This document shows positions 96 to 32,485 of a DNA stretch of 33,800 bases, in pieces. The notes below the pieces were generated by a model. That model was given only the letters and a program-made list of their open reading frames with translations, ran no database searches and was not told where the DNA came from. The translations under genes and the position numbers were made by a program. Position 1 is the stretch's first letter. Each line of letters starts with the position of its first letter. The stretch is from Verrucomicrobiia bacterium (lineage in GTDB: Bacteria > Verrucomicrobiota > Verrucomicrobiia > Verrucomicrobiales > DEV007), in contig JAGROY010000078.1 in NCBI GenBank assembly GCA_020439995.1, positions 1 to 33,800 on the forward strand. Direction: 5' to 3'.

Positions 96-183
96 CTTCA
101 AGCACGACATCGGCCAAAAAAATGCGCCAACCGTTCTCGGGCTGAAAGCCCGCCAGCGCAGAGCTCAGGGCTTCAGCCCTGAG
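96..183 (+). repeat. Left 88-bp REP-type inverted arm of the RAYT unit
   Basis: This arm matches the reverse complement of 751-838 at about 83 of 88 positions. It contains two small palindromes, GGGCTGAAAGCCC and CTCAGGGCTTCAGCCCTGAG, which are typical of REP elements. Together the two arms bracket the transposase gene at 238-690. A further partial palindrome of the same kind lies at 61-80. Confidence 0.85.
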
Positions 184-750: not shown

Positions 751-838
751 CTCAGGGCTGAAGCCCTGAGCTTTGCGCTGGCGGGCTTTCAGCCCGACAA
801 CAGTTGGCGCAATTTTTTGCCCGATGTCGTGCTTGAAG
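751..838 (-). repeat. Right 88-bp REP-type inverted arm of the RAYT unit
   Basis: This is the inverted partner of 96-183, with five mismatches over 88 positions. Both arms carry the same nested palindromes and an A-tract. The arm lies just upstream of the transposase start and would be translated if the longer frame were used, which it probably is not. Confidence 0.85.
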
Positions 839-21811: not shown

Positions 21812-22425
21812 ATTGTCCTCTTCCACTCGAGAATCACCTGAACCATATCCCTGATCCTGAATTACATAGATAGAATCAATTTTTAGACATAGCCGGAAAC
21901 CAAAACGTCCGCAACCAGCTGGAACTGGAAGCGGACGATGAGGGGTAAATTCCGAACCAGGTTCGAAGCTTACGTTTGCTCTTAGACGGTCAGACCATAG
22001 CGGTTGAACTGCCACCGGTCAACCGGAACCCGTTTATCAAACGGGCAATGGTTCACTGCGGGAAGCGTTCGTCCATTTACCTCTCAGATCCGAGCGACCT
22101 GAGAGGGCCTATTATTGGGAGGTGTGCCTGTAAACACCGAAACGTCCGTCGAGAAATCCTGCGGCTACCCTTCGAGAGAAGCGGCAACGGTGTTCGTCTT
22201 TTATTAGCAGATACAATAGACAATAAGGCGTTCTCGAAACGTTTACTGATAGCTCGATCCAAGCAGTGATACTCCCGGACGGTTCAACCCGGAACTAATA
22301 AACCAGGACAGCGTTAACGCTGATCCACCCTATGCCATCGCGCATCCCGAGGTGATGAACCGCTCTAACGGAGCAACTACCATTGGTTGAAAAGTCAGTG
22401 ACCCATTCGAAATGAACGCCGATGC
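21812..22425 (+). ncRNA. Hairpin-dense non-coding region upstream of the tRNA array
   Basis: About 610 nt with no credible gene but many helices. CGTCCGC/GCGGACG (21906-21937) encloses CCAG/CTGG. CGAACCAGGTTCG (21953-21965) is a perfect palindrome. GGTAAAT (21944-21950) can pair with ATTTACC (22075-22081) around CGGTTGA/TCAACCG (22001-22025) and CCCGTTT/AAACGGG (22029-22045). CTCTCAG/CTGAGAG (22081-22105) and a GAGA-tetraloop CTTC/GAAG stem follow, then CAGCGTTAACGCTG (22309-22322). A large ornate RNA, of the sort known beside phage tRNA clusters (GOLLD), is one possibility; degenerate tRNA units are another. Confidence 0.4.
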
Positions 22426-22495
22426 ACACCGCGCACCAGCCGTGCAGCTGGGATTCCAAATCCCGGCCTGCCTGGGGCAGCACCAGGGCGGTGTG
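22426..22495 (+). tRNA. tRNA-Trp (CCA)
   Basis: Acceptor ACACCGC/GCGGTGT, discriminator G, encoded CCA (22496-22498). Anticodon arm TGGGA-TTCCAAA-TCCCG, five-nt variable loop, T-arm CCTGG-GGCAGCA-CCAGG. The T-loop has G54-G55-C56 instead of TTC and the short D-loop has AG in place of GG. The anticodon stem can be extended to 7 bp. First unit of the array. Confidence 0.75.
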
Positions 22496-22503
22496 CCATT
22501 TTT

Positions 22504-22885
22504 CAATTTAGGATTGATGATTTAGGATTCATCATGGGATCCTTATTCATGGATTAAAAAGAGATGCAGGATCGGACGAAGCAGTTCGCGTTAAAGCAAT
22601 GAAACTAGTCGCTTCCATGCCAAACACAATTGAGGGAAAGGTTGTTGCGAATCAGATTATGCGAAGTGCGACGTTGGTCGGAGCAAACTACCGGGCGGCT
22701 TGCCGAGCACGTTCAAGTGCAGAGTTCGTCGCCAAGATTAGCGTAGTTCTCGAATAAACTGACGAATCGGCACTCTGGCTCGAATTGATCATGGAAAGTG
22801 GATTGATGCCGCGTGAGCGCATTGAATCCCTCCACCGTGAGGCCACGCGAAAAATCGTAAATCATAAATCTCAAATCCTAAATTT
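22504..22885. mobile_element. IVS-like element inserted in the tRNA array
   Basis: AATTTAGGATT at 22505-22515 is repeated inverted as AATCCTAAATT at 22874-22884, and looser AT-rich similarity extends each arm to about 25 nt. Between the arms lies a decayed S23-type four-helix-bundle gene. This is the organisation of the intervening sequences known from 23S rRNA genes, here sitting between tRNA-Trp and tRNA-Pro. Confidence 0.55.
22564..22860 (+). pseudogene. Four-helix-bundle (S23/IVP) protein, frameshifted and with a stop
   Basis: ATG 22564 gives MQDRTKQFAL. A one-base loss near 22592 then shifts the frame to KAMKLVASMPNTIEGKVVAN, followed by QIMRSATLVGANYRAACRAR, the hallmark of the 23S rRNA intervening-sequence four-helix-bundle family, and SSAEFVAKISVVLE. 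An in-frame TAA (22755-22757, expected GAA) is followed by TDESALWLELIMESGLMPRE in the same frame. The gene is clearly dead but recently so. The family's function is unknown; homologues are common as free-standing genes in diverse bacteria. Confidence 0.85.
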
Positions 22886-22888
22886 CTA

Positions 22889-22961
22889 CGCGGCGAGATC
22901 GAAGAGTGGAGAGCAGTGCCTTGGAAGCACTGAGAAGCAGGTGCGACTCCTGCCGCCGCGA
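22889..22961 (+). tRNA. tRNA-Pro (TGG)
   Basis: Perfect acceptor CGCGGCG/CGCCGCG, discriminator A, encoded CCA (22962-22964). Anticodon arm AGTGC-CTTGGAA-GCACT, variable GAGAA, T-arm GCAGG-TGCGACT-CCTGC. T-loop has G55-C56. The D-arm is poorly formed and its GG/AG status is ambiguous. Confidence 0.85.
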
Positions 22962-22989
22962 CCACTTTCATGATAACAAGCGGTCAAAC

Positions 22990-23041
22990 TCCCCATCCTG
23001 CAGCGCCCGGTTTTGGGCCGGGTTGCTGTGGTGGAGGAGAG
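22990..23041 (+). other. Rod-like hairpin with a TTG-type anticodon loop
   Basis: CCCGG-TTTTGGG-CCGGG would be an acceptable Gln (TTG) anticodon arm, but the flanks continue as one long imperfect stem (CAGC/GCTG, CTCC..GGAG). No D-arm, T-arm or acceptor can be drawn. It is probably a degenerate unit of the array. Confidence 0.35.
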
Positions 23042-23049
23042 ATCAAAAT

Positions 23050-23117
23050 CGCAAGCCAGGAAGTCCTGACCTGGGGCTCATAACCCCGGTGACCTGGAGC
23101 ATTACCAGGGCTTGCCA
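23050..23117 (+). tRNA. Initiator-like tRNA-Met (CAT)
   Basis: Acceptor CGCAAGC/GCTTGCC has a C1-C72 mismatch, discriminator A and encoded CCA (23118-23120). Anticodon arm TGGGG-CTCATAA-CCCCG carries the run of G:C pairs typical of initiators. Only 68 nt long: the D-arm is CAGG-AAGT-CCTG with a 4-nt loop. T-arm CCTGG-AGCATTA-CCAGG. Unpaired 1-72 and GGG:CCC are both initiator hallmarks. Confidence 0.75.
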
Positions 23118-23140
23118 CCAATTTTCATCGTATGCGCAAT

Positions 23141-23223
23141 AGGTGTGCGTCGGAGTGAGAGAGCCGAGCCGGGCTGTAACCCCGGTGCCTTGTGCTGAGT
23201 GGGTGCAAATCCCTCCACACCTA
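23141..23223 (+). tRNA. tRNA-Tyr (GTA)
   Basis: Acceptor AGGTGTG/CACACCT, discriminator A, no CCA. D-stem TCGG/CCGA with an AG-containing loop, anticodon arm CCGGG-CTGTAAC-CCCGG. A 13-nt variable region is as expected for bacterial tRNA-Tyr. T-arm GTGGG-TGCAAAT-CCCTC with one mismatch; T-loop G55-C56. Confidence 0.8.
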
Positions 23224-23232
23224 CGAATTTCA

Positions 23233-23323
23233 GGGGCGTGAACCAGACAAGCGAGCTGGAACCGTTTCGAAAGCGGATTGAGCCTCGACGAGAGCGCTTG
23301 GGGAGCATGTCCTCCGCGCCCCG
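23233..23323 (+). tRNA. tRNA-Ser (CGA)
   Basis: Acceptor GGGGCGT/GCGCCCC, discriminator G as usual for Ser, no CCA. D-arm CCAG-ACAAGCGAG-CTGG. Anticodon CGA in loop TTCGAAA. Long variable arm of about 20 nt; T-stem GGGG/CCTC with loop AGCATGT (G55-C56). Confidence 0.82.
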
Positions 23324-23377
23324 CGATTTCTTTCGTCGGAAAGAGAGTAGCTGGGACTTCAGTCCCAATTCCCTGAT

Positions 23378-23467
23378 GGATCGTGAACCGGACAAGCGTG
23401 CCGGGTTCGGTTGGAAGCCGACACGTCCGGGATCATTCCGGATGGGGTGCAAGTCCTCCGCGTTCCG
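23378..23467 (+). tRNA. tRNA-Ser (GGA)
   Basis: Acceptor GGATCGT/GCGTTCC with a T4-T69 mismatch, discriminator G, encoded CCA (23468-23470). D-arm CCGG-ACAAGCGTG-CCGG, anticodon loop TTGGAAG, long variable arm with TCCGG/CCGGA pairing. T-loop TGCAAGT. Confidence 0.82.
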
Positions 23468-23482
23468 CCAGATTTTTCCTAT

Positions 23483-23570
23483 GGGATGTGAACCAGACAA
23501 GCGTGCTGGAGCCGTTTTGAAAGCGGACGGAGCCCGATCAGGGCTTGGGGAGCATGCCCTCCGCATCCCG
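23483..23570 (+). tRNA. tRNA-Ser (TGA)
   Basis: Acceptor GGGATGT/GCATCCC, discriminator G, no CCA. D-arm CCAG-ACAAGCGTG-CTGG, anticodon loop TTTGAAA, variable arm AGCCC/GGGCT, T-loop AGCATGC. Strongly similar to the other two Ser units upstream. Confidence 0.82.
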
Positions 23571-23577
23571 CTCATCT

Positions 23578-23650
23578 GTCCTTGTAGTGTAGTGGCCTAT
23601 CACATCTGACTTTCTATCAGAAAACCGGAGTTCGATTCTCCGCAGGGACG
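23578..23650 (+). tRNA. tRNA-Glu (TTC), standard elbow
   Basis: Acceptor GTCCTTG/CAGGGAC, discriminator G, no CCA. D-stem GTG/CAC with a GG-containing loop (TAGTGGCCTAT). Anticodon arm TCTGA-CTTTCTA-TCAGA (T37 is unusual). T-arm CGGAG-TTCGATT-CTCCG is fully canonical. One of the few units with both G18-G19 and T55. Confidence 0.9.
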
Positions 23651-23660
23651 CGACTTTCAT

Positions 23661-23731
23661 TGTCCTGTAGCTCAAAAGCAGAGCATTCGGCCGATAACCG
23701 ACAGACCTCGGAGCGTTACCGAGCAGGACGA
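23661..23731 (+). tRNA. tRNA-Ile (GAT)
   Basis: Acceptor TGTCCTG/CAGGACG, discriminator A, no CCA. D-arm GCTC-AAAAGCA-GAGC with A18-G19. Anticodon loop CCGATAA has C at position 33. T-arm CTCGG-AGCGTTA-CCGAG with G55-C56. Confidence 0.82.
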
Positions 23732-23746
23732 TTTCATTGTTAAAAA

Positions 23747-23817
23747 GGCTGAATAGCTCACGCAGGAGAGCACACGCCTGAAGAGCGTGAGGGAAGGGTG
23801 CAACTCCCTGTCAGCCA
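23747..23817 (+). tRNA. tRNA-Phe (GAA)
   Basis: Acceptor GGCTGA/TCAGCC, discriminator A, encoded CCA (23818-23820). D-arm GCTC-ACGCAGGA-GAGC, where AG aligns with G18-G19. Anticodon arm CACGC-CTGAAGA-GCGTG; T-stem AGGG/CCCT with loop TGCAACT (G55-C56). Confidence 0.85.
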
Positions 23818-23828
23818 CCAATTTTAAC

Positions 23829-23899
23829 GGCCCATTGTTGTAATAGTAGCATGACTGTCTGTCGAACAGTTCGAGTCGGAGCGTAACCGGCATGGGCCG
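23829..23899 (+). tRNA. tRNA-Asp (GTC)
   Basis: Perfect acceptor GGCCCAT/ATGGGCC, discriminator G as usual for Asp, no CCA. Anticodon arm ACTGT-CTGTCGA-ACAGT. T-arm GTCGG-AGCGTAA-CCGGC (G55-C56). The D-arm is weak with AATAGTAGC where AATGGTAGC is usual. Confidence 0.83.
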
Positions 23900-23911
23900 C
23901 CTATAGTTTCA

Positions 23912-23934
23912 GTAGTGGTGACTTTTAGTCGCCA
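23912..23934 (+). repeat. Half copy of the 24-bp REP palindrome arm
   Basis: This 23-nt stretch matches the left arm of the perfect palindrome at 26132-26155 with one mismatch. It lies between tRNA-Asp and tRNA-Met in the array. No inverted partner is adjacent. Confidence 0.75.
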
Positions 23935-24010
23935 GAATATCGCGCGAAAGGAACGGGGTTGCCGCTTGCACCGCCCAGGGGATACCGCCAAATTCGATCT
24001 TCTACAAAAT

Positions 24011-24086
24011 AGCGGTGTGGACAAGTCTGGTCGAAGTCGCGTGTCTCATAAGCACGTCATCGAGGGGTCGAATCCCTCCGCCGCAA
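24011..24086 (+). tRNA. tRNA-Met (CAT), elongator-like
   Basis: Acceptor AGCGGTG/CGCCGCA with A1-A72 unpaired, discriminator A. D-arm GAC/GTC with a long loop containing TCTGGTCG (G18-G19 kept). Anticodon arm CGTGT-CTCATAA-GCACG. T-arm GAGGG-GTCGAAT-CCCTC keeps T55-C56. It could also be an Ile2-type tRNA; the CAT anticodon does not decide this. Confidence 0.8.
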
Positions 24087-24096
24087 CCCTTTCAAT

Positions 24097-24167
24097 GTTC
24101 TCGTAGTGTAACAGATGCATACCTCTCTGCGAAGGAGGAGGATCAGGTGCAAATCCTGGCGGGAACG
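24097..24167 (+). tRNA. tRNA-Arg (GCG)
   Basis: Acceptor GTTCTCG/CGGGAAC, discriminator G, no CCA. Anticodon arm CCTCT-CTGCGAA-GGAGG, T-arm TCAGG-TGCAAAT-CCTGG. D-loop TAACAGATG has AG where GG is expected. Confidence 0.85.
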
Positions 24168-24182
24168 CTCAGCCTTTCAAAT

Positions 24183-24253
24183 TCCCTTGAAGCATTAAAG
24201 TGATGCAATGGCCTTTTAAGCCATTGAAGTGGGAGCGTTACCCACCGGGGGAA
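24183..24253 (+). tRNA. tRNA-Lys (TTT)
   Basis: Acceptor TCCCTTG/CGGGGGA, discriminator A, no CCA. D-arm GCAT-TAAAGTG-ATGC with A18-G19. Anticodon arm ATGGC-CTTTTAA-GCCAT, T-arm GTGGG-AGCGTTA-CCCAC. Confidence 0.88.
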
Positions 24254-24266
24254 CTGTTCCTTTTGT

Positions 24267-24340
24267 GCCCACGTAGCCCAACCAGTAGAGGCAATCGATT
24301 TAAGCTCGATTCAGTGCGGGTGCGAATCCTGCCGTGGGCA
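24267..24340 (+). tRNA. tRNA with Leu (TAA) anticodon, short variable loop
   Basis: Perfect acceptor GCCCACG/CGTGGGC, discriminator A, encoded CCA (24341-24343). D-arm GCC/GGC with loop CAACCAGTAGA. Anticodon arm ATCGA-TTTAAGC-TCGAT. The variable loop is only TCAGT, whereas bacterial Leu tRNAs have a long arm. T-arm GCGGG-TGCGAAT-CCTGC. Confidence 0.85.
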
Positions 24341-24352
24341 CCAGTTTTCTAT

Positions 24353-24455
24353 GCGAGGCGATCCTGCAAGGTGCTTCTAACGCCTCGACGTAAAACAGCG
24401 GGAAGGCGTAAAACAGCGGGAAGGATGTCGAGGGGTTCAATTCCTCCGTCTCGTG
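24353..24455 (+). tRNA. tRNA-Arg-like (TCT), D-arm missing, expanded variable region
   Basis: Acceptor GCGAGGC/GTCTCGT and anticodon arm AGGTG-CTTCTAA-CGCCT are good, but only nine bases lie between them, so there is no D-arm. The region after the anticodon arm is swollen to about 43 nt by two perfect 18-bp tandem copies (24389-24406 and 24407-24424). T-loop TTCAATT is of standard type. Probably non-functional or specialised. Confidence 0.6.
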
Positions 24456-24460
24456 CTGCT

Positions 24461-24532
24461 GCTTTCGTAGCTCAATGGAAGAGCAACGGCCTTCGAAGCC
24501 GTAGGATGCTGGTTCGAATCCAACCGGGCGCC
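24461..24532 (+). tRNA. tRNA-Arg (TCG), standard elbow
   Basis: D-arm GCTC-AATGGAA-GAGC, anticodon arm ACGGC-CTTCGAA-GCCGT and T-loop TTCGAAT are canonical. Acceptor GCTTTCG/CGGGCGC has a T3-C70 mismatch and the T-stem GCTGG/CCAAC one mismatch. Encoded CCA (24533-24535). Confidence 0.85.
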
Positions 24533-24688
24533 CCATTTGATTGATGAAATGGGGCGAGCTTTGGATGAGAACGCAGTTCGACTGCTCGGTCGCGAAGGGA
24601 TCCTAGTTTCCGCAGCGCAGCGGAGGCAAATCGCAGAGCCGAGTGCAACGAGGATAATCCAACCGGGAGCATCAATTCAATTCTTCAA
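24530..24688 (+). other. Unassigned stretch of the array with hairpins
   Basis: GCCCCATTT (24530-24538) pairs perfectly with AAATGGGGC (24547-24555), and TCCGC-AGCGCA-GCGGA follows further on. The string ATCCAACCGGG near 24657 repeats the 3' end of the preceding tRNA-Arg, suggesting a partial duplication. No complete cloverleaf can be drawn. Confidence 0.4.
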
Positions 24689-24778
24689 GGAGCTTTAACC
24701 GAACAAGCGTATCGGGTTCGCCTGCTAAGCGATGCGTTCCACTGTCCGTGGGATGAGGTGCAAGTCCTCAAGGCTCCG
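24689..24778 (+). tRNA. tRNA-Ser (GCT)
   Basis: Acceptor GGAGCTT/AGGCTCC, discriminator G, encoded CCA (24779-24781). D-arm CCGA-ACAAGCGTA-TCGG, anticodon loop CTGCTAA, variable arm TCCAC/GTGGGA, T-arm TGAGG-TGCAAGT-CCTCA. Fourth Ser isoacceptor of the array. Confidence 0.85.
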
Positions 24779-24784
24779 CCATTT

Positions 24785-24860
24785 TCATTCGGTTCGGCGC
24801 TCAACGACTAGATTGTTGGGCGAGGTATCTGTGCTTCCGTAGAAGCAGGCTGCGACCAAT
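24785..24860 (+). other. Structured remnant between Ser and Leu tRNAs
   Basis: CGCTCAAC pairs with GTTGGGCG around a 9-nt loop, and TGCTTC pairs with GAAGCA around CGTA, ending in CGACCA. The pieces resemble arms of a tRNA but no acceptor partner is present. Possibly a degraded unit. Confidence 0.3.
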
Positions 24861-24873
24861 TTCTGAACTCAAC

Positions 24874-24947
24874 GCTCACGTAGCCCAATTAGCAGAGGCG
24901 CCGGTCTTAGAAACCGGAGGTTGAGGGTGCAAATCCCTCCGTGAGTA
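24874..24947 (+). tRNA. tRNA with Leu (TAG) anticodon, short variable loop
   Basis: Acceptor GCTCACG/CGTGAGT, discriminator A, no CCA. D-loop CAATTAGCAGA is the standard CAATTGGCAGA with one G changed to A. Anticodon arm CCGGT-CTTAGAA-ACCGG, variable loop AGGTT only, T-arm GAGGG-TGCAAAT-CCCTC. Confidence 0.88.
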
Positions 24948-24996
24948 TTTTTCATTTCTCAGATCTCATCCCATCGACGGGATCTTCTCGATCGTG

Positions 24997-25079
24997 TGGA
25001 GTGCTCCGGCTTCCATGAGCTTTTTCTGTTCGAGCGATGGATGTCCGGAAAAAAAGCGCTGTCGAGACCAGCCACTCCA
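24997..25079 (+). repeat. REP-2 copy inserted in the tRNA array
   Basis: This 83-bp element begins TGGAGTGCTC and ends CACTCCA, with a GAGCTTTTT block and an AAAAAGCGCTGTCGAGACCA block inside. It is a diverged sister of the two copies that flank the second RAYT gene (31767-31848, 32468-32550), in the same orientation. Confidence 0.85.
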
Positions 25080-25093
25080 GATTCATGCAGGTG

Positions 25094-25143
25094 TTTCTCG
25101 AGTCCTCGATATTGCGGAACGGGTGTGAGTCCCGTCGGGAGAG
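25094..25143 (+). tRNA. 50-nt mini-tRNA: acceptor and T-arm only
   Basis: TTTCTCG pairs with CGGGAGA at all seven positions (two G-T), and ACGGG-TGTGAGT-CCCGT is a perfect T-arm directly inside. Only 18 nt, with a possible TCC/GGA stem, replace the D- and anticodon arms. Either an internal deletion or a deliberate minihelix. Confidence 0.45.
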
Positions 25144-25156
25144 TCTTTACCCATAT

Positions 25157-25229
25157 GTTGGCCGTAGTGTAAGAGTTAGCATTCATCCCTGTGAAGGATG
25201 CGGTGCGGGTGCGAATCCCGTCGGTCAAC
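25157..25229 (+). tRNA. tRNA-His (GTG)
   Basis: Acceptor TTGGCCG/CGGTCAA plus the His-specific G(-1) (25157) opposite discriminator C73 (25229). Anticodon arm CATCC-CTGTGAA-GGATG, T-arm GCGGG-TGCGAAT-CCCGT. D-loop has AG for GG. The retained identity element argues that this is a charged tRNA. Confidence 0.9.
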
Positions 25230-25239
25230 CTTATTCAAT

Positions 25240-25311
25240 ACACATGTAGCATAACGGTAATGCACCTCCCTGTTAAGGAGCCCCATCATGGTTCAAATCC
25301 ATGCGTGTGTG
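25240..25311 (+). tRNA. tRNA-Asn (GTT), standard elbow
   Basis: Acceptor ACACATG/CGTGTGT, discriminator G, encoded CCA (25312-25314). D-arm GCAT-AACGGTA-ATGC with G18-G19. Anticodon loop CTGTTAA, T-arm CATGG-TTCAAAT-CCATG fully canonical. Confidence 0.92.
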
Positions 25312-25322
25312 CCAATTTGTAT

Positions 25323-25393
25323 TACGCTGTGGCCGAGCAGTGAGGCACGCGATTGCAACCCGCGCCACGAGGGTGCAAATCCCTCCAGCGTAT
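25323..25393 (+). tRNA. tRNA-Cys (GCA)
   Basis: Perfect acceptor TACGCTG/CAGCGTA with discriminator T, the Cys identity base. Anticodon loop TTGCAAC on a 4-bp stem. D-arm GCC-GAGCAGTGA-GGC (AG for GG), T-arm GAGGG-TGCAAAT-CCCTC. No CCA. Confidence 0.85.
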
Positions 25394-25480
25394 CTTTTTC
25401 ATTTAGCATGGACGATTTAGGATTCTGCACATTTTGAATTCGAAAAGTTCGAGGCCCAGCGATCCTGGTTCCATGCCCAT

Positions 25481-25551
25481 GTGCCATTGGTCTAGGAGCA
25501 TGATGGCTGTCTTCCAAACAGCAGAAGCCGGAGCGTTACCGGCATGGCACA
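25481..25551 (+). tRNA. tRNA-Gly (TCC)
   Basis: Perfect acceptor GTGCCAT/ATGGCAC, discriminator A, no CCA. Anticodon arm GCTGT-CTTCCAA-ACAGC. D-loop TAGGAGCATG against the usual TAGTGGCATG gives A18. T-arm GCCGG-AGCGTTA-CCGGC. Confidence 0.88.
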
Positions 25552-25565
25552 CTTCTTATCTTTAT

Positions 25566-25634
25566 GCCAGCGTGGCAGACAATTGCGCCGATCTTGTAAA
25601 TCGGACTATGCGGGTGAAAGCCCTGTCGCTGGCT
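25566..25634 (+). tRNA. tRNA-Thr (TGT)
   Basis: Perfect acceptor GCCAGCG/CGCTGGC, discriminator T, encoded CCA (25635-25637). Anticodon arm CCGAT-CTTGTAA-ATCGG. T-loop TGAAAGC keeps G55 but loses C56, and the D-loop GACAAT is short, so this is an outlier of the elbow pattern. Confidence 0.8.
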
Positions 25635-25652
25635 CCATTTTTCTTCCAAAGG

Positions 25653-25723
25653 GGGGGCTTAGTTCAAAAGTAGAACGCCTGTTTTACATGCAGGATACGG
25701 TGGAGCGTTACCATCAGCCCTTA
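25653..25723 (+). tRNA. tRNA-Val (TAC)
   Basis: Acceptor GGGGGCT/AGCCCTT (two G-T pairs), discriminator A, no CCA. D-arm GTTC-AAAAGTA-GAAC, anticodon arm CCTGT-TTTACAT-GCAGG, T-arm GGTGG-AGCGTTA-CCATC. A18-G19 with G55-C56. Confidence 0.86.
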
Positions 25724-25734
25724 CTATTCATTTT

Positions 25735-25805
25735 GCCGGATTCGTTCAATAGCAGGACACCGGATCGCCATTCCGGGGACGTCGGGGCAGTATCGGCATT
25801 CGGCA
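25735..25805 (+). tRNA. tRNA-Gly (GCC)
   Basis: Acceptor GCCGGAT/ATTCGGC, discriminator A, encoded CCA (25806-25808). D-arm GTTC-AATAGCA-GGAC. Anticodon arm CCGGA-TCGCCAT-TCCGG has C33. T-arm GTCGG-GGCAGTA-TCGGC, the same rare T-loop type as tRNA-Trp. Confidence 0.83.
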
Positions 25806-25859
25806 CCATTTTCGAAATCGGCACTTGCAGGGCGTAGCGGAGCAGTCCACGATTGCGCC

Positions 25860-26111
25860 ATGAAAGCCCGGTTCCTTCTCCGTCTCGTGACCCTGATCCT
25901 GTTCGCCAGTGCTCCATGCCTAACCGGGTGCGGAACGGCTAGCGGGCTGGGGAATGCTGCCCGGGGCTTGGGGGGCACTGCCTGGAACTTGCCGAGGAAT
26001 CTTTTCCGAATGGGAAATCAGATCACCAGGGGCGTCACTCAGGGAGTGATCAGCAATTCGCGCGGAGCGATGGGCATGGGGCCTAGAGTGCTGAGCGTTC
26101 CAGCCAGGTAG
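25860..26111 (+). CDS. Small lipoprotein encoded inside the tRNA array
   Basis: This 83-residue protein starts at ATG 25860. The N-terminus MKARFLLRLVTLILFASAP, followed by CLTGC, is a lipoprotein signal with lipobox LTGC (Cys24). The mature part is Gly/Ala/Asn/Arg-rich (GTASGLGNAARGLGGTAWNL) without a known domain, similar in composition to small entericidin-like or phage-lysis-type lipoproteins, though no relationship is claimed. No Shine-Dalgarno sequence is visible. It is the only plausible intact protein gene between 22426 and 26532, and lies on the same strand as the tRNAs. Confidence 0.6.
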   Translation: MKARFLLRLVTLILFASAPCLTGCGTASGLGNAARGLGGTAWNLPRNLFRMGNQITRGVTQGVISNSRGAMGMGPRVLSVPAR

Positions 26112-26131
26112 CGTGTGAATCTGCTGTTGTG

Positions 26132-26190
26132 GTAGTGGTGACTTTCAGTCGCCATCGGTGCTGACGATGGCGACTGAAAGTCACCACTAC
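26132..26190. repeat. Perfect 24-bp REP-type palindrome
   Basis: 26132-26155 and 26167-26190 are exact inverted copies of 24 bp around an 11-nt loop; each arm contains GACTTTCAGTCGCC. A single diverged arm occurs at 23912. The hairpin abuts the 5' end of tRNA-Gln and may have damaged its acceptor strand. Confidence 0.9.
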
Positions 26191-26199
26191 TGGCACTGT

Positions 26200-26274
26200 T
26201 CGTGAAAGACCAGTCTAACAGTAAGGCACGGGCCTTTGAAGCCTGGAATCGTGGTGCGAGTCCACGCTCCCGAG
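26200..26274 (+). tRNA. tRNA-Gln (TTG)
   Basis: Anticodon arm CGGGC-CTTTGAA-GCCTG, T-arm CGTGG-TGCGAGT-CCACG, discriminator G and encoded CCA (26275-26277) are clear. The 5' acceptor strand TCGTGAA pairs poorly with CTCCCGA (two mismatches), perhaps because the adjacent REP replaced it. D-loop has TAACAGTAA (AG for GG). Confidence 0.75.
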
Positions 26275-26328
26275 CCAATTTTCATTTTCTCATACGATTC
26301 AATGATCTGGTAGTAAGGGCGGGGCTAC

Positions 26329-26409
26329 TTCGGTTAGTATCCGGGTGGTCGCCGGTTCGAATCCGGCTTGGGGCTTTGTCTTATGCCCCAGTAGCTCAGT
26401 GGTAGAGCA
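26329..26409 (+). tRNA. Possible circularly permuted tRNA-Thr (AGT)
   Basis: In genomic order: anticodon arm TTCGG-TTAGTAT-CCGGG, variable TGGTC, T-arm GCCGG-TTCGAAT-CCGGC, 3' acceptor TTGGGGC, T, then a 9-nt linker, then 5' acceptor GCCCCAG, TA, D-arm GCTC-AGTGGTA-GAGC, A. Rejoined, these make a canonical cloverleaf with a 7-bp acceptor, G18-G19 and T55. No other acceptor partner exists upstream of the first half. Alternatively these are halves of two broken tRNAs. Confidence 0.5.
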
Positions 26410-26460
26410 CGTCAGCTCCCCGTCCACTTTTCTCCAGATCTCCATTTTTCGAATCAACAT

Positions 26461-26532
26461 TCCCGGGTGGTCCAATAGTCAGGATGCCTGACTCTGAATC
26501 AGGAGGTCACGGTGCAATTCCGTGCCCGGGTG
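26461..26532 (+). tRNA. tRNA-Gln (CTG)
   Basis: Acceptor TCCCGGG/CCCGGGT with U1-U72 unpaired (Gln tRNAs have a weak first pair), discriminator G, encoded CCA (26533-26535). D-arm GTCC-AATAGTCA-GGAT, anticodon arm CCTGA-CTCTGAA-TCAGG, T-arm CACGG-TGCAATT-CCGTG. Confidence 0.88.
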
Positions 26533-26557
26533 CCATTTTCTTGTGAATTTTGGAGCA

Positions 26558-26697
26558 GCGAAGGCTGGGCTACTTCGCCCGCGATATGGGACAGCAGCCG
26601 TAAAACAGGATGCCACTGGCAAGGCATCAAAGTGAGGAACCCGGCAGTGCGAGAGCATCGTCGAGGAGCGGATTCGACTTCCGCCGCACGCCCAGCC
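26558..26697 (+). ncRNA. tRNA-like structured RNA, candidate Y RNA
   Basis: GGCTGGGC (26563-26570) pairs with GCCCAGCC (26690-26697) in a perfect 8-bp terminal helix. Just inside, GTGCG/CGCAC (26647-26651, 26685-26689) holds a canonical T-arm GCGGA-TTCGACT-TCCGC, and GATGCC/GGCATC makes an anticodon-like hairpin. A local GCGAAG/CTTCGC stem competes at the 5' end. At 135-140 nt it is too long for a tRNA. Bacterial Y RNAs that bind Ro60 combine a terminal helix with a tRNA-like T-arm module, and this unit lies about 160 nt before the TROVE gene. A split or intron-bearing tRNA-Ala (GGC) is an alternative. Confidence 0.5.
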
Positions 26698-26734
26698 TGG
26701 TTTTCTCTCCAAACAACTTCTGGGGCAGTAAGGA

Positions 26735-26789
26735 CAGAGTTACTTCGTACAAAAACGAATCCACCCTATCAAGGTGATTACCTACTCTG
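26735..26789 (+). other. T-armless tRNA-like leader before the TROVE gene
   Basis: CAGAGT/ACTCTG closes two hairpins, TTCGT/ACGAA and CACC-CTATCAA-GGTG, the second with a 7-nt anticodon-like loop; there is no T-arm. It may be the last array unit or a structured 5' leader of the TROVE mRNA. Confidence 0.35.
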
Positions 26790-26839
26790 CACATTTTTCT
26801 CCCCAGTCTCTTTCAATACGCAAACACAAATACATCAGA

Positions 26840-26855: not shown

Positions 26856-28286
26856 ATGAAGTTCAACAAACTACTACAACGTAAATCGAAGCGCACGACG
26901 GTGAACCTTGCCGGGGGCGAGGCCTACGCCGAGTCTCCGAAGCTCAAGCTGATCTCGATGCTCTTGACGAGCTTTCTCGAAGACAAGTTCTACCGATCGG
27001 GGAATGATACGGTGGCCTGCCTGCGCAAGCTTGCGAACGAAGTAGGCGACGACCGATTCGTTGCCAAGGCGGCGCTCTATGCACGCCACGAGGCCGGTAT
27101 GCGATCCGTTTCACACCTGATCGCGGGCGATCTTGCTGCGCGCGTGAAAGGTGCGGAGTGGACGAAGCGTTTCTTTGATCGTATCGTCCGCCGCCCGGAC
27201 GATGCGCTGGAAATCCTGGCTTACTCGATGGCGGTTCATGGTAAGCCATTACCGAATGCCCTTAAGAAAGGCATCGGTGCTGCGCTTGCTCGATTCGACC
27301 ACTACCAGCTGGAGAAATACTGCGGTGGCAGTGCGGAGCTGAAGTTGGTGGATGCGGTGAACCTTGTTCACCCGCCGCACACGGAAGCTCTGCGCGCGCT
27401 GATGAATGGGACACTGGCACCAGCGGCGACCTGGGAAACCGGGCTCACGCAGGCTGGCCAGAATGCGCATTCGGAGTCTGACAAAGTGGTGCGAAAAGCT
27501 GCTGCGTGGACTGAGCTCATGCGTTCCCGCAAGATCGGCTATTTTGCCCTTCTGCGTAACCGTCGCAACATCCTCGAGCAGGCGCCAGAGGCTACGGACG
27601 ATGTGATCAAGCTGTTGACCGACCGAGCGTTGATCAAGCGATCGCTGGTTCTGCCGTTTCGCTTCCGCACGGCGCTCGATGCGCTGGCATCCGTCCCGGG
27701 CGCTCGCAATCAGATGGTGATCGCTGCTCTCAGCGATGCTGTGGATCTGCCGTTGCACAACGTGCCTCGTTTCGATGGCCGTACGTTGATCGCGATGGAT
27801 TGCTCAGGATCGATGATTGGTCGTCCAATGAAGATAGGCTCGCTATTTGCTGCCGTTCTTTTCAAGGCGAGTGATGCTGACATGATGCTCTTCAGTGGAA
27901 GTGCGCGCTACGTGGCGTTGAATAAGAATGACTCGACGCTCACGATCGCCTCGCGGATTGAAGAAAAGGCGGAATGGAGTGGAACGAACTTCCACGCTGT
28001 CTTCGATCAGGCGAAAGGTGCATACGACAGGGTAATCATCCTGTCCGACATGCAGGCGTGGATCGGTCGGCATACGCCGAAGTCCGCGTTCGACGCCTAT
28101 GTGGCGAGATCGGGCAAACGGCCACGCATCTACAGCTTCGACCTCGCTGGTCACGGAACATTGCAGTTCCCTGAGCGCGAAGTCTACGCTCTGGCGGGAT
28201 GGTCAGACAAGGTGCTGGATACACTCAAATTCCTCGAGCAGGACAAGCATGCGCTAGTCCGAGAAATCGAGAACATCGAACTGTAG
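26856..28286 (+). CDS. rsr: Ro60/TROVE-domain RNA-binding protein (Rsr-like)
   Basis: This 476-residue protein has an N-terminal TROVE domain (about 15-300) built of helical repeats (for example ATVACLRKLANEVGDDRFVA-type helices from residue 48, and AALYARHEAGMRSVSHL). A vWA domain (about 305-475) follows, with MIDAS motif MDCSGSMIG (Asp315), SGTNFH and LSDMQ supplying metal ligands. Ro60 proteins form a ring that holds misfolded RNA ends in the cavity and Y RNA on the outside; bacterial homologues work with exonucleases and tRNA-like Y RNAs in rRNA and tRNA turnover. It follows a 28-member tRNA array on the same strand with no visible terminator between, so co-expression is likely. Its own terminator is at 28300. 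Confidence 0.93.
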   Translation: MKFNKLLQRKSKRTTVNLAGGEAYAESPKLKLISMLLTSFLEDKFYRSGNDTVACLRKLANEVGDDRFVAKAALYARHEAGMRSVSHLIAGDLAARVKGAEWTKRFFDRIVRRPDDALEILAYSMAVHGKPLPNALKKGIGAALARFDHYQLEKYCGGSAELKLVDAVNLVHPPHTEALRALMNGTLAPAATWETGLTQAGQNAHSESDKVVRKAAAWTELMRSRKIGYFALLRNRRNILEQAPEATDDVIKLLTDRALIKRSLVLPFRFRTALDALASVPGARNQMVIAALSDAVDLPLHNVPRFDGRTLIAMDCSGSMIGRPMKIGSLFAAVLFKASDADMMLFSGSARYVALNKNDSTLTIASRIEEKAEWSGTNFHAVFDQAKGAYDRVIILSDMQAWIGRHTPKSAFDAYVARSGKRPRIYSFDLAGHGTLQFPEREVYALAGWSDKVLDTLKFLEQDKHALVREIENIEL

Positions 28287-31891: not shown

Positions 31892-32485
31892 ATGTCGAAT
31901 TCTGAGCCCCATAACTTCTGGCCTCATGCACCTGAGCATCGACTGGGAGATGGCGGCGCTTACTTTGTGACGGCAGGCACCTATCAGAAACACCACATTT
32001 TCCGAACGAACGATGATCTCAAGGCATTGCACGGTGGGCTGTTGAAATACGCGGCGCAATACGAGTGGCAACTTGAGGCATGGGCAGTTTTCTCAAATCA
32101 CTATCACTTTATTGCTCAATCGCCCGTGGCGGAAGCAGAGGCGGGCGATGGAGCCCGAAGCTTGCGCAAATTCTTAGCGCATTTCCATTCACGAAGTGCG
32201 GCATGGATCAATGATCGTCACGAAATGAAGGGGAGAAAAGTGTGGCAGAACTTTTGGGATACGCAACTGACTCACCAGTCGAGTTATCTGGCAAGGCTTC
32301 ACTACGTGCATGCGAACCCAGTGAAGCATGGACTAGTGCCGGTCGCTCGAGATTATCCGTGGTGTTCGGCTGGATGGTTCGAGCGAACAGCATCCGCACC
32401 GAAGGTTAAAACGATTTACGGTTTCAAGACCGATCGCGTGAATGTTCCAGATGAATTCGAGCCAATTTGGAGTGCTCAGGCTTGA
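31892..32485 (+). CDS. REP-associated tyrosine transposase (second RAYT)
   Basis: This 197-residue Y1/HUH transposase belongs to a different subgroup from the one at 238-690. Marks are GGAYFVTAGTYQKHHIFR, the WAVFSNHYHFIAQSP metal-binding HxH motif, KVWQNFWDTQLTHQSSYLAR with a candidate catalytic Tyr region, and LHYVHANPVKHGLV, DYPWCS. The gene sits between two direct copies of REP-2, and its last four codons and TGA lie inside the downstream copy, so gene and repeat are physically fused. It is intact. The third copy at 24997 suggests past activity. Confidence 0.92.
   Translation: MSNSEPHNFWPHAPEHRLGDGGAYFVTAGTYQKHHIFRTNDDLKALHGGLLKYAAQYEWQLEAWAVFSNHYHFIAQSPVAEAEAGDGARSLRKFLAHFHSRSAAWINDRHEMKGRKVWQNFWDTQLTHQSSYLARLHYVHANPVKHGLVPVARDYPWCSAGWFERTASAPKVKTIYGFKTDRVNVPDEFEPIWSAQA

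Follow-up and report, generated by a model that had tools for sequence, protein, structure and literature searches.

A second set of transfer RNAs, most of which have the elbow letters G18 and U55 replaced by A18 and G55, is encoded upstream of a Ro60-like (TROVE-domain) gene in a Verrucomicrobiia bacterium. The window, that is, the whole stretch of DNA analysed, comprises 33,800 nucleotides of contig JAGROY010000078.1 (assembly GCA_020439995.1). G18 and pseudouridine-55 are among the most conserved letters of tRNA. In ordinary molecules they pair through a single hydrogen bond, and the exposed G19-C56 face of the elbow is read by RNase P, the ribosome and others (passages of PMC4810234 and PMC7912444). 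In the window, a unit-by-unit listing corrected by eye gives 28 tRNA-like units covering 19 amino acids. G55 is present in 23 of them and A18G19 in 22 of those 23, so that 22 of the 28 depart from the canonical G18-U55 elbow as A18/G55. The swap is restricted to the array, is shared by arrays across Verrucomicrobiota and by viral tRNAs, and in relatives is found in the neighbourhood of TROVE, RtcB and RlaP genes. Judging from the letters, we tentatively favour the view that this second set may be a replacement supply escaping a putative factor that reads the canonical elbow.

These counts agree closely with the original prediction, which had put them at 23 of 28 and about 21 of 23 and had proposed that the units retaining T55 retain GG. 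Indeed, T55 is found in five units: Glu, Met(2), Arg-TCG and Asn have GG, and Arg-TCT, as had also been claimed, lacks a normal D-arm. The lone G55 unit without A18G19 is Thr-TGT, where A56 stands opposite a D-loop offering T19. The D-loops of Trp and Met(1) are very short, which makes the AG assignment weak in both. A structure-only scan, which relies on cloverleaf base pairing alone and favours no particular sequence (20 shuffled sequences reached 37.5 at most), places the units between about 22.9 and 26.5 kb of the window, with stems of 7/4/5/5 base pairs and the T-loop classes TGCRANN, AGCRTTA or AGCRTAA, and GGCAGTA accompanied by AG in the D-loop. In the unit-by-unit listing, the automatic choice of the T-arm was off in four units (Ser-TGA, Phe, Arg-TCT and Arg-TCG) and that of the D-arm in a few (for example Gln-TTG); these were corrected by eye from sequence and scan. 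ARAGORN predicts 15 tRNA genes within the window, and 15 stretches score at or above the gathering score of the Rfam tRNA family.

The letters change in pairs, at 18-55 and 54-58 and, in few units, at 19-56. Among 735 distinct units from Verrucomicrobiota loci, with position 18 set by a purine-G rule, A18 accompanies G55 in 601 and G18 accompanies U55 in 63; three are mixed, one is A18/A55, and the rule leaves position 18 unassigned in 67. In 260 distinct Verrucomicrobiota units the D-loop has seven letters and position 18 is the fourth, no choice being involved: AG goes with G55-C56 in 213 and GG with T55-C56 in 20, leaving 27 other combinations. In this subset the mutual information between the fourth letter and position 55 is 0.255 of the 0.405 bits that position 55 carries, as compared with a maximum of 0.057 in 2000 shuffles. 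These shuffle statistics ignore kinship between units, as is apparent from D-loop letters 2 and 6, which also lie slightly above their shuffle maxima (0.067 vs 0.046 and 0.051 vs 0.047). Both elbow types occur within one anticodon group, each with its own partner. Glu-TTC has 13 GG/T55 and 13 AG/G55 units of 30 (the remaining four combine G55 with CG or TG), Met-CAT 9 and 11 of 22, and Arg-TCT 4 and 6 of 10. A reason for the swap specific to certain isotypes was considered and rejected: no pattern was found, nearly all isotypes being affected.

Positions 54 and 58 show TA in 466 of the 735 units, AT in 102, GG in 79, CA in 53 and other pairs in 35, with a mutual information of 0.95 bits vs a shuffle maximum of 0.028. 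Position 56 is other than C in 23 of 691 G55 units, often with the complement offered by the D-loop as C19-G56 or U19-A56, and the phage contigs L173, L219 and L220 have A19-U56 together with T55. Before these 19-56 counts, units without a G53-C61 pair or with A or G at position 33 were dropped, which reduced the Verrucomicrobiota sample from 774 to 760. A comparison set with T55-C56 in 261 of 268 units was drawn from loci already showing T55 units and is not used as a test. We infer that A18 probably contacts G55 in three dimensions. In its letters the TGCRA class matches the U-GNR-A T-loops of the flavin mononucleotide and adenosylcobalamin riboswitches, which are not tRNAs and in which a U-A pair brackets GNR (passages of PMC2258182), and this makes the fold plausible. 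Decay or drift of redundant tRNA genes would account for some window units being degenerate. It is nonetheless highly improbable, because tertiary contacts show paired changes and the cloverleaf stems are retained in distant relatives. Stem pairing is biased upward, since the scan retains well-paired units only (score 42-45 or more).

The swapped elbow is a trait of the array, since the ordinary tRNAs are canonical. Outside the array, 28 tRNAs of this genome could be aligned out of 36 matches: all 28 have GG, 27 have T55 and one has C55. From Chthoniobacter flavus, the alignment took in 30 of the 46 matches that lie on contigs other than that of the array, and every one of the 30 combines GG with T55. 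Pooled, the ordinary tRNAs of both genomes have GG in 58/58 and T55 in 57/58, which rules out a trait of the lineage. The earlier interpretation stands in part: the double change is compensated rather than decayed, it is specific to the array, where it affects most units, and it removes the U55 target of the pseudouridine-55 enzyme, which follows from the letters themselves. What did not survive is the idea of one odd set, as whole arrays are spread over Verrucomicrobiota and single swapped tRNAs occur in many viral contigs. That interpretation also made no reference to RNA repair, although a TROVE gene adjoins the array and relatives add RtcB and RlaP.

This distribution was followed through the TROVE protein, which in alignment is 60-73% identical to those of relatives, most of them known from metagenome assemblies, and 50% identical to that of one phage. 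The gene was matched in 20 of 74 genomes of the same family, in two of them distantly. Stretches from the other 19 genomes hold at least one unit in 14 cases and at least four in 12; of the five without units, three come from contigs no longer than 4.3 kb and the other two encode the distant TROVE proteins. The window and the 14 family loci together contain 219 units: 169 are AG/G55, 40 GG/T55, none AG/T55, six other, and four GG/G55, all of which hold AGG, so that their register is ambiguous. A wider scan of GTDB contigs, made with an alignment of nine TROVE proteins, gave 140 loci, the best 80 of which were analysed. Among these, 45 are from Verrucomicrobiota, with at least one A18/G55 unit in 38 and at least three in 32. 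Of the seven without such a unit, L083, L124, L127 and L141 are short or cut contigs. At the level of the phylum, a marker pattern was matched in seven genomes, three of which (G379, G438 and G444) were judged by eye to be probable chance matches with no tRNA fold.

The link with the Ro protein is frequent, not obligatory. A role of the units as partners of the TROVE protein, amounting to additional Y RNAs, would agree with the array adjoining TROVE in 38 of those 45 loci. It would not explain six arrays with no TROVE gene in the fetched stretch (L271, L272, L274, L275, L276, with three G55 units, and L277), which rule out an obligatory link; one of them lies on a 5.96 Mb contig, and its genome, G173, gave no TROVE match. 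Nor would it explain that, of 34 TROVE loci from other groups (Saprospiraceae, an Acidobacterium and others), not one has an A18/G55 unit, while 13 have at least three canonical units. We regard it as improbable. The same 34 loci dispose of the possibility that every TROVE-linked array has this elbow, and the TROVE locus L110 of Nanoarchaeia likewise has no A18/G55 unit. TROVE is likewise missing from L273, which stops at the array, and from L280, whose genome has TROVE on another contig.

The locus encodes a further tRNA-shaped molecule, a Y-RNA-like RNA at 26305-26442 (+), which matches YrlA (RF02553) with 40.9 bits, below the gathering score of 69 (E 1.1e-6), and has a fold z of -3.69. The tRNA-Thr(AGT) that ARAGORN calls at 26304-26375 is instead part of this RNA, a permuted tRNA whose module at 26351-26408 has a normal elbow (TTCGAAT / AGTGGTA). 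Defined as a T-arm, a closed acceptor stem and a D-arm with a score of at least 37, none being found in one shuffle per locus, the permuted module lies between array and TROVE in 34 of 42 TROVE loci, and 34 of 39 modules have the canonical elbow (TC/GG). Since most array units do not, the two tRNA-shaped RNAs of one locus differ in their elbow. Weaker or partial YrlA matches, all below the gathering score, occur in L056, L064, L068, L113 and L123. By eye, two more stretches in window 26550-26800 have the GCTACTTCG/GTTACTTCG motif of the Y-RNA-like element and are possibly more Y RNAs.

Viruses have the swap as well. Halovirus HGTV-1 encodes TROVE and RtcB, and three of its 22 scanned tRNAs are A18/G55. 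Among TROVE-carrying viral contigs (the best 80 of 149), seven have A18/G55 units, up to 29, and phage structural genes lie near three of these seven arrays. Marker patterns matched at least 120 viral stretches, to which two were added, giving 122 loci. G55 units with a tRNA fold are found in 106 of them, mostly one to three among canonical tRNAs; as the patterns contain the swap, these 106 loci indicate the existence of such tRNAs, not their frequency. AG accompanies G55 in 215 of the 220 G55 units, the purine-G rule also labelling as AG 42 T55 units of this set, 39 of which have GG in the D-loop too. Phage tRNAs in L173 with GG and C55 (T-loops TCCGANN) represent a third elbow solution. A bacterial RNase P RNA match lies inside the array in two of the three viral contigs searched for RNA families, at L173:6111-6379 (136 bits, over the gathering score) and at L220:7476-7689 (46.9 bits, below it), which makes co-adapted processing possible. 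L220 also has a transfer-messenger RNA at 1194-1548.

Several features would suit working tRNAs. Identity elements are kept in many isotypes: among Verrucomicrobiota units, duplicates included, G3:U70 is present in 21/21 Ala units, G73 in 32/32 Asp, 28/28 Asn and 10/10 Trp, U73 in 29/29 Cys, and A73 in 39/39 Ile and 73/74 Leu. The distinct G55 units have an encoded CCA in 557 of 667 cases and A14 in 581 of 667. If the array is a replacement supply, its units would be transcribed and processed into tRNAs that are aminoacylated and serve on the ribosome, with an A18-G55 contact leaving the outer 19-56 face to serve RNase P, RNase Z and the ribosome. Under stress (phage defence, toxins or RNA damage), an agent reading the D- and T-loops would destroy the normal tRNAs, and the array set would be blind to it. 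RtcB and RlaP would mend cut tRNAs, and the Ro-Y ribonucleoprotein, its Y RNA copying the canonical elbow, might handle damaged ones. There is precedent for parts of this scheme. A D-loop change impairs cleavage by AriB, the PARIS nuclease (passages of PMC12409363), Cas12a3 touches the T-arm backbone (passages of PMC12851939), and phage tRNAs have been proposed to stand in for those host tRNAs that defences cleave (passages of PMC7824862 and PMC10264068). By analogy, a recoded elbow beside repair genes would fit the logic of phage tRNA replacement. It is also conceivable, with slightly less confidence, that cells and phages possess a second class of functional tRNAs, whose recoded elbow would mark them as self and keep them invisible to canonical-elbow enzymes, so that translation continues while the normal set is destroyed.

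To be sure, a number of observations weigh against a working replacement set. No agent reading position 18 or 55 was identified. The listing of 28 window units includes no Ala unit, and Arg-TCT, Met(1), Trp and Gln-TTG are degenerate. Array Gly units have A73 in 47 of 50 cases, vs U73 in three aligned ordinary Gly tRNAs of this genome, and only 15 of 36 His units have C73, so that some units may be charged poorly. C33 replaces U33 in 100 of 670 G55-C56 units, most often in Ile-GAT (for example window 23661-23731), which is unusual for decoding; it is found in 2 of 68 T55 units and in 11 of 261 units of arrays elsewhere. Some units in which position 56 is not C have no matching complement at 19. 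The canonical T55-C56 is kept in 68 of 760 Verrucomicrobiota units, which escape from a universal elbow reader leaves unexplained. Finally, L112, L119 and L120 are Verrucomicrobiota TROVE loci with room for an array yet no A18/G55 unit, to which the six arrays without TROVE have to be added.

Some of these points would suit other explanations. The array RNAs could be decoys, tRNA-shaped baits soaking up tRNA-cleaving enzymes or toxins with no need for translation, a role in keeping with the C33 units and with a wide isoacceptor set adjoining RNA-repair genes. A bait, however, should copy the canonical elbow, as the Y-RNA-like module does and most array units do not, and synthetase identity elements are kept in many isotypes; we consider decoys unlikely. 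Slightly less likely still, the swap could escape modification enzymes (those making pseudouridine-55, 5-methyluridine-54 and 2'-O-methylguanosine-18) or direct the tRNAs to a use outside the ribosome. The loss of U55 in all swapped units, that of U54 in the AT, GG and CA classes and the prevalent A73 of Gly units would agree with such a role. Against it, nearly all isotypes are affected and no enzyme using aminoacyl-tRNA was recognised among the identified recurrent neighbours. The model for non-ribosomal use is the staphylococcal wall tRNA-Gly, which has an altered GG and a GUGC T-loop and does not bind EF-Tu. The array differs in its letters, A18G19 with UGC, AGC or GGC, and in involving nearly all isotypes. 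With 19 amino acids covered by the set and many synthetase identity elements retained in relatives, the parallel is a poor fit.

The replacement supply that we favour has likenesses in several known systems. Archaeal tRNA clusters have a TROVE gene in 20 of 29 cases, with many units annotated as pseudogenes (passages of Morgado and Vicente, 2019, PMC6333295). Those passages mention no elbow change, and two haloarchaeal plasmid arrays adjoining TROVE, scanned here, differ from the present one in having T55 in 33/33 units. Phage tRNA arrays likewise combine many isoacceptors with RNA ligases and RlaP, and a role in resistance to host tRNA nucleases has been proposed (passages of PMC10264068 and PMC7824862). 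The present array differs in residing in a bacterial chromosome and in its elbow; the words T-loop, D-loop and elbow are absent from the main text of PMC10264068. The rsr-yrlBA-rtcBA operons also join a Ro60-like protein, Y RNA, RtcB and tRNA damage (passages of Hughes et al., 2020, PMC7790460), whereas here a recoded tRNA set is added and RlaP, HNH and Band_7 genes recur. HGTV-1 (KC292026), with its TROVE and RtcB genes and many tRNAs, is an archaeal virus in which the swap affects only part of the set. In the openly licensed literature of PubMed Central, subscription papers being outside its scope, we found no recognisable description of A18/G55 tRNAs or of such Verrucomicrobiota arrays. As most G18/U55 letters of the set are replaced together with their partners, the elbow is evidently open to rewriting, and the array is a natural experiment that could tell which enzymes read it. 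Should escape be its role, the conflict over tRNAs would extend from the anticodon loop to the elbow, and viral A18/G55 tRNAs would be predicted to resist particular defences. The cultured carriers Chthoniobacter flavus and Brevifollis gellanilyticus make the array testable.

The array and TROVE, often with RtcB, RlaP and other genes, form an RNA-repair island. Reading frames within 9 kb of units were clustered for 59 loci, eight viral and 51 from Verrucomicrobiota including the window (L114 and L278 being the same contig counted twice). Recurrent neighbours are the TROVE family (44 loci), HNH endonuclease (30), RtcB (17), RlaP (15), Band_7 (12), a LysR regulator (12) and a sigma factor (7). 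Without a name are a 248-residue family (12 loci), a further family (8) and a cluster of minus-strand frames (20); the 248-residue family has no Pfam match (L087:4199-4945 and 11 other loci). L111 is arranged as LysR, array, TROVE, HNH, sigma, unknown, RtcB, Band_7 and RlaP. In the window, the TROVE gene at 26856-28286 (+, 476 residues, PF05731 E 1.1e-16) is followed by GNAT and SNF2 genes. RtcB and RlaP were not recognised near the window array; this genome has two RtcB genes and RlaP on other contigs, RlaP with HNH and Band_7 neighbours. The HNH, Band_7 and RlaP block is on contig C120 (genome G000, L285:4666-7027), with a canonical-looking tRNA-like stretch upstream.

The window units all lie on the forward strand. 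The first is Trp-CCA (22424-22498; T-loop GGCAGCA with G55, very short D-loop CAGCC), followed by Pro-TGG (22889-22961; G55, D-loop AAGAGTGG, Rfam tRNA score below gathering), Met-CAT unit 1 (23050-23119; T-loop AGCATTA with G55, tiny D-loop) and Tyr-GTA (23141-23223; G55, D-loop AGTGAGAGAG). Three Ser units come next: Ser-CGA (23233-23323), with a long variable arm, T-loop AGCATGT (G55) and D-loop ACAAGCGAG, Ser-GGA (23378-23467), with T-loop TGCAAGT (G55) and D-loop ACAAGCGTG, and Ser-TGA (23483-23570), with T-loop AGCATGC (G55, corrected by eye) and the same D-loop, ACAAGCGTG. Glu-TTC (23578-23650) is canonical (GG/T55). Giving D-loop before T-loop, Ile-GAT (23661-23731) has AAAAGCA / AGCGTTA and Phe-GAA (23747-23818) has ACGCAGGA / TGCAACT, its T-loop corrected by eye, both being A18/G55; Asp-GTC (23829-23899) has AATAGTA / AGCGTAA. 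After Met-CAT unit 2 (24011-24086; GG/T55, T-loop GTCGAAT) come Arg-GCG (24097-24167; AACAGAT / TGCAAAT), Lys-TTT (24183-24253; TAAAGTG / AGCGTTA) and Leu-TAA (24267-24340; short variable loop, AACCAGTAG / TGCGAAT). Arg-TCT (24353-24455), without a normal D-arm, has T55 by eye and an internal duplication, and Arg-TCG (24461-24532) is canonical (GG/T55). Ser-GCT (24689-24778) has T-loop TGCAAGT (G55), Leu-TAG (24874-24947) AATTAGCAG / TGCAAAT and His-GTG (25158-25229) AAGAGTTA / TGCGAAT. Beyond the canonical Asn-GTT (25240-25311; GG/T55) lie Cys-GCA (25323-25393; AGCAGTG / TGCAAAT), Gly-TCC (25481-25551; AGGAGCA / AGCGTTA, A73), Thr-TGT (25566-25635; T-loop TGAAAGC with G55 and A56, D-loop AGACAATTG with T19 possible), Val-TAC (25653-25723; AAAAGTA / AGCGTTA) and Gly-GCC (25735-25805; AATAGCA / GGCAGTA). 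Gln-TTG (26200-26274), with a weak acceptor stem, has AACAGTA (by eye) / TGCGAGT, and the last unit, Gln-CTG (26461-26532), has AATAGTCA / TGCAATT.

Other elements accompany these arrays. GOLLD RNA is reported near phage tRNA islands (passages of PMC12286853), and a match of 142.4 bits (gathering score 150, E 8e-38) lies at L056:1537-2027, within the 5' portion of an array from the same family, and a tRNA lies within the match; an Rfam search found no GOLLD RNA in the window, and blastn of the window against the L056 stretch gave weak matches only (best E 0.47). Palindromic repeats, TAGTGGTGACTTTTAGTCGCCA and near copies, lie inside the window array (23911-23935, 26131-26190) and, by eye, on contig C120 too. 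The window also has a Y1-type transposase gene at 31892-32485 (PF01797 at its cut-off), which together with the repeats may be a pair of repetitive extragenic palindromes (REP) and their associated transposase (RAYT). Two matches to Acido-Lenti-1 RNA, above its gathering score, are located at window positions 138-183 (-) and 751-796 (+).

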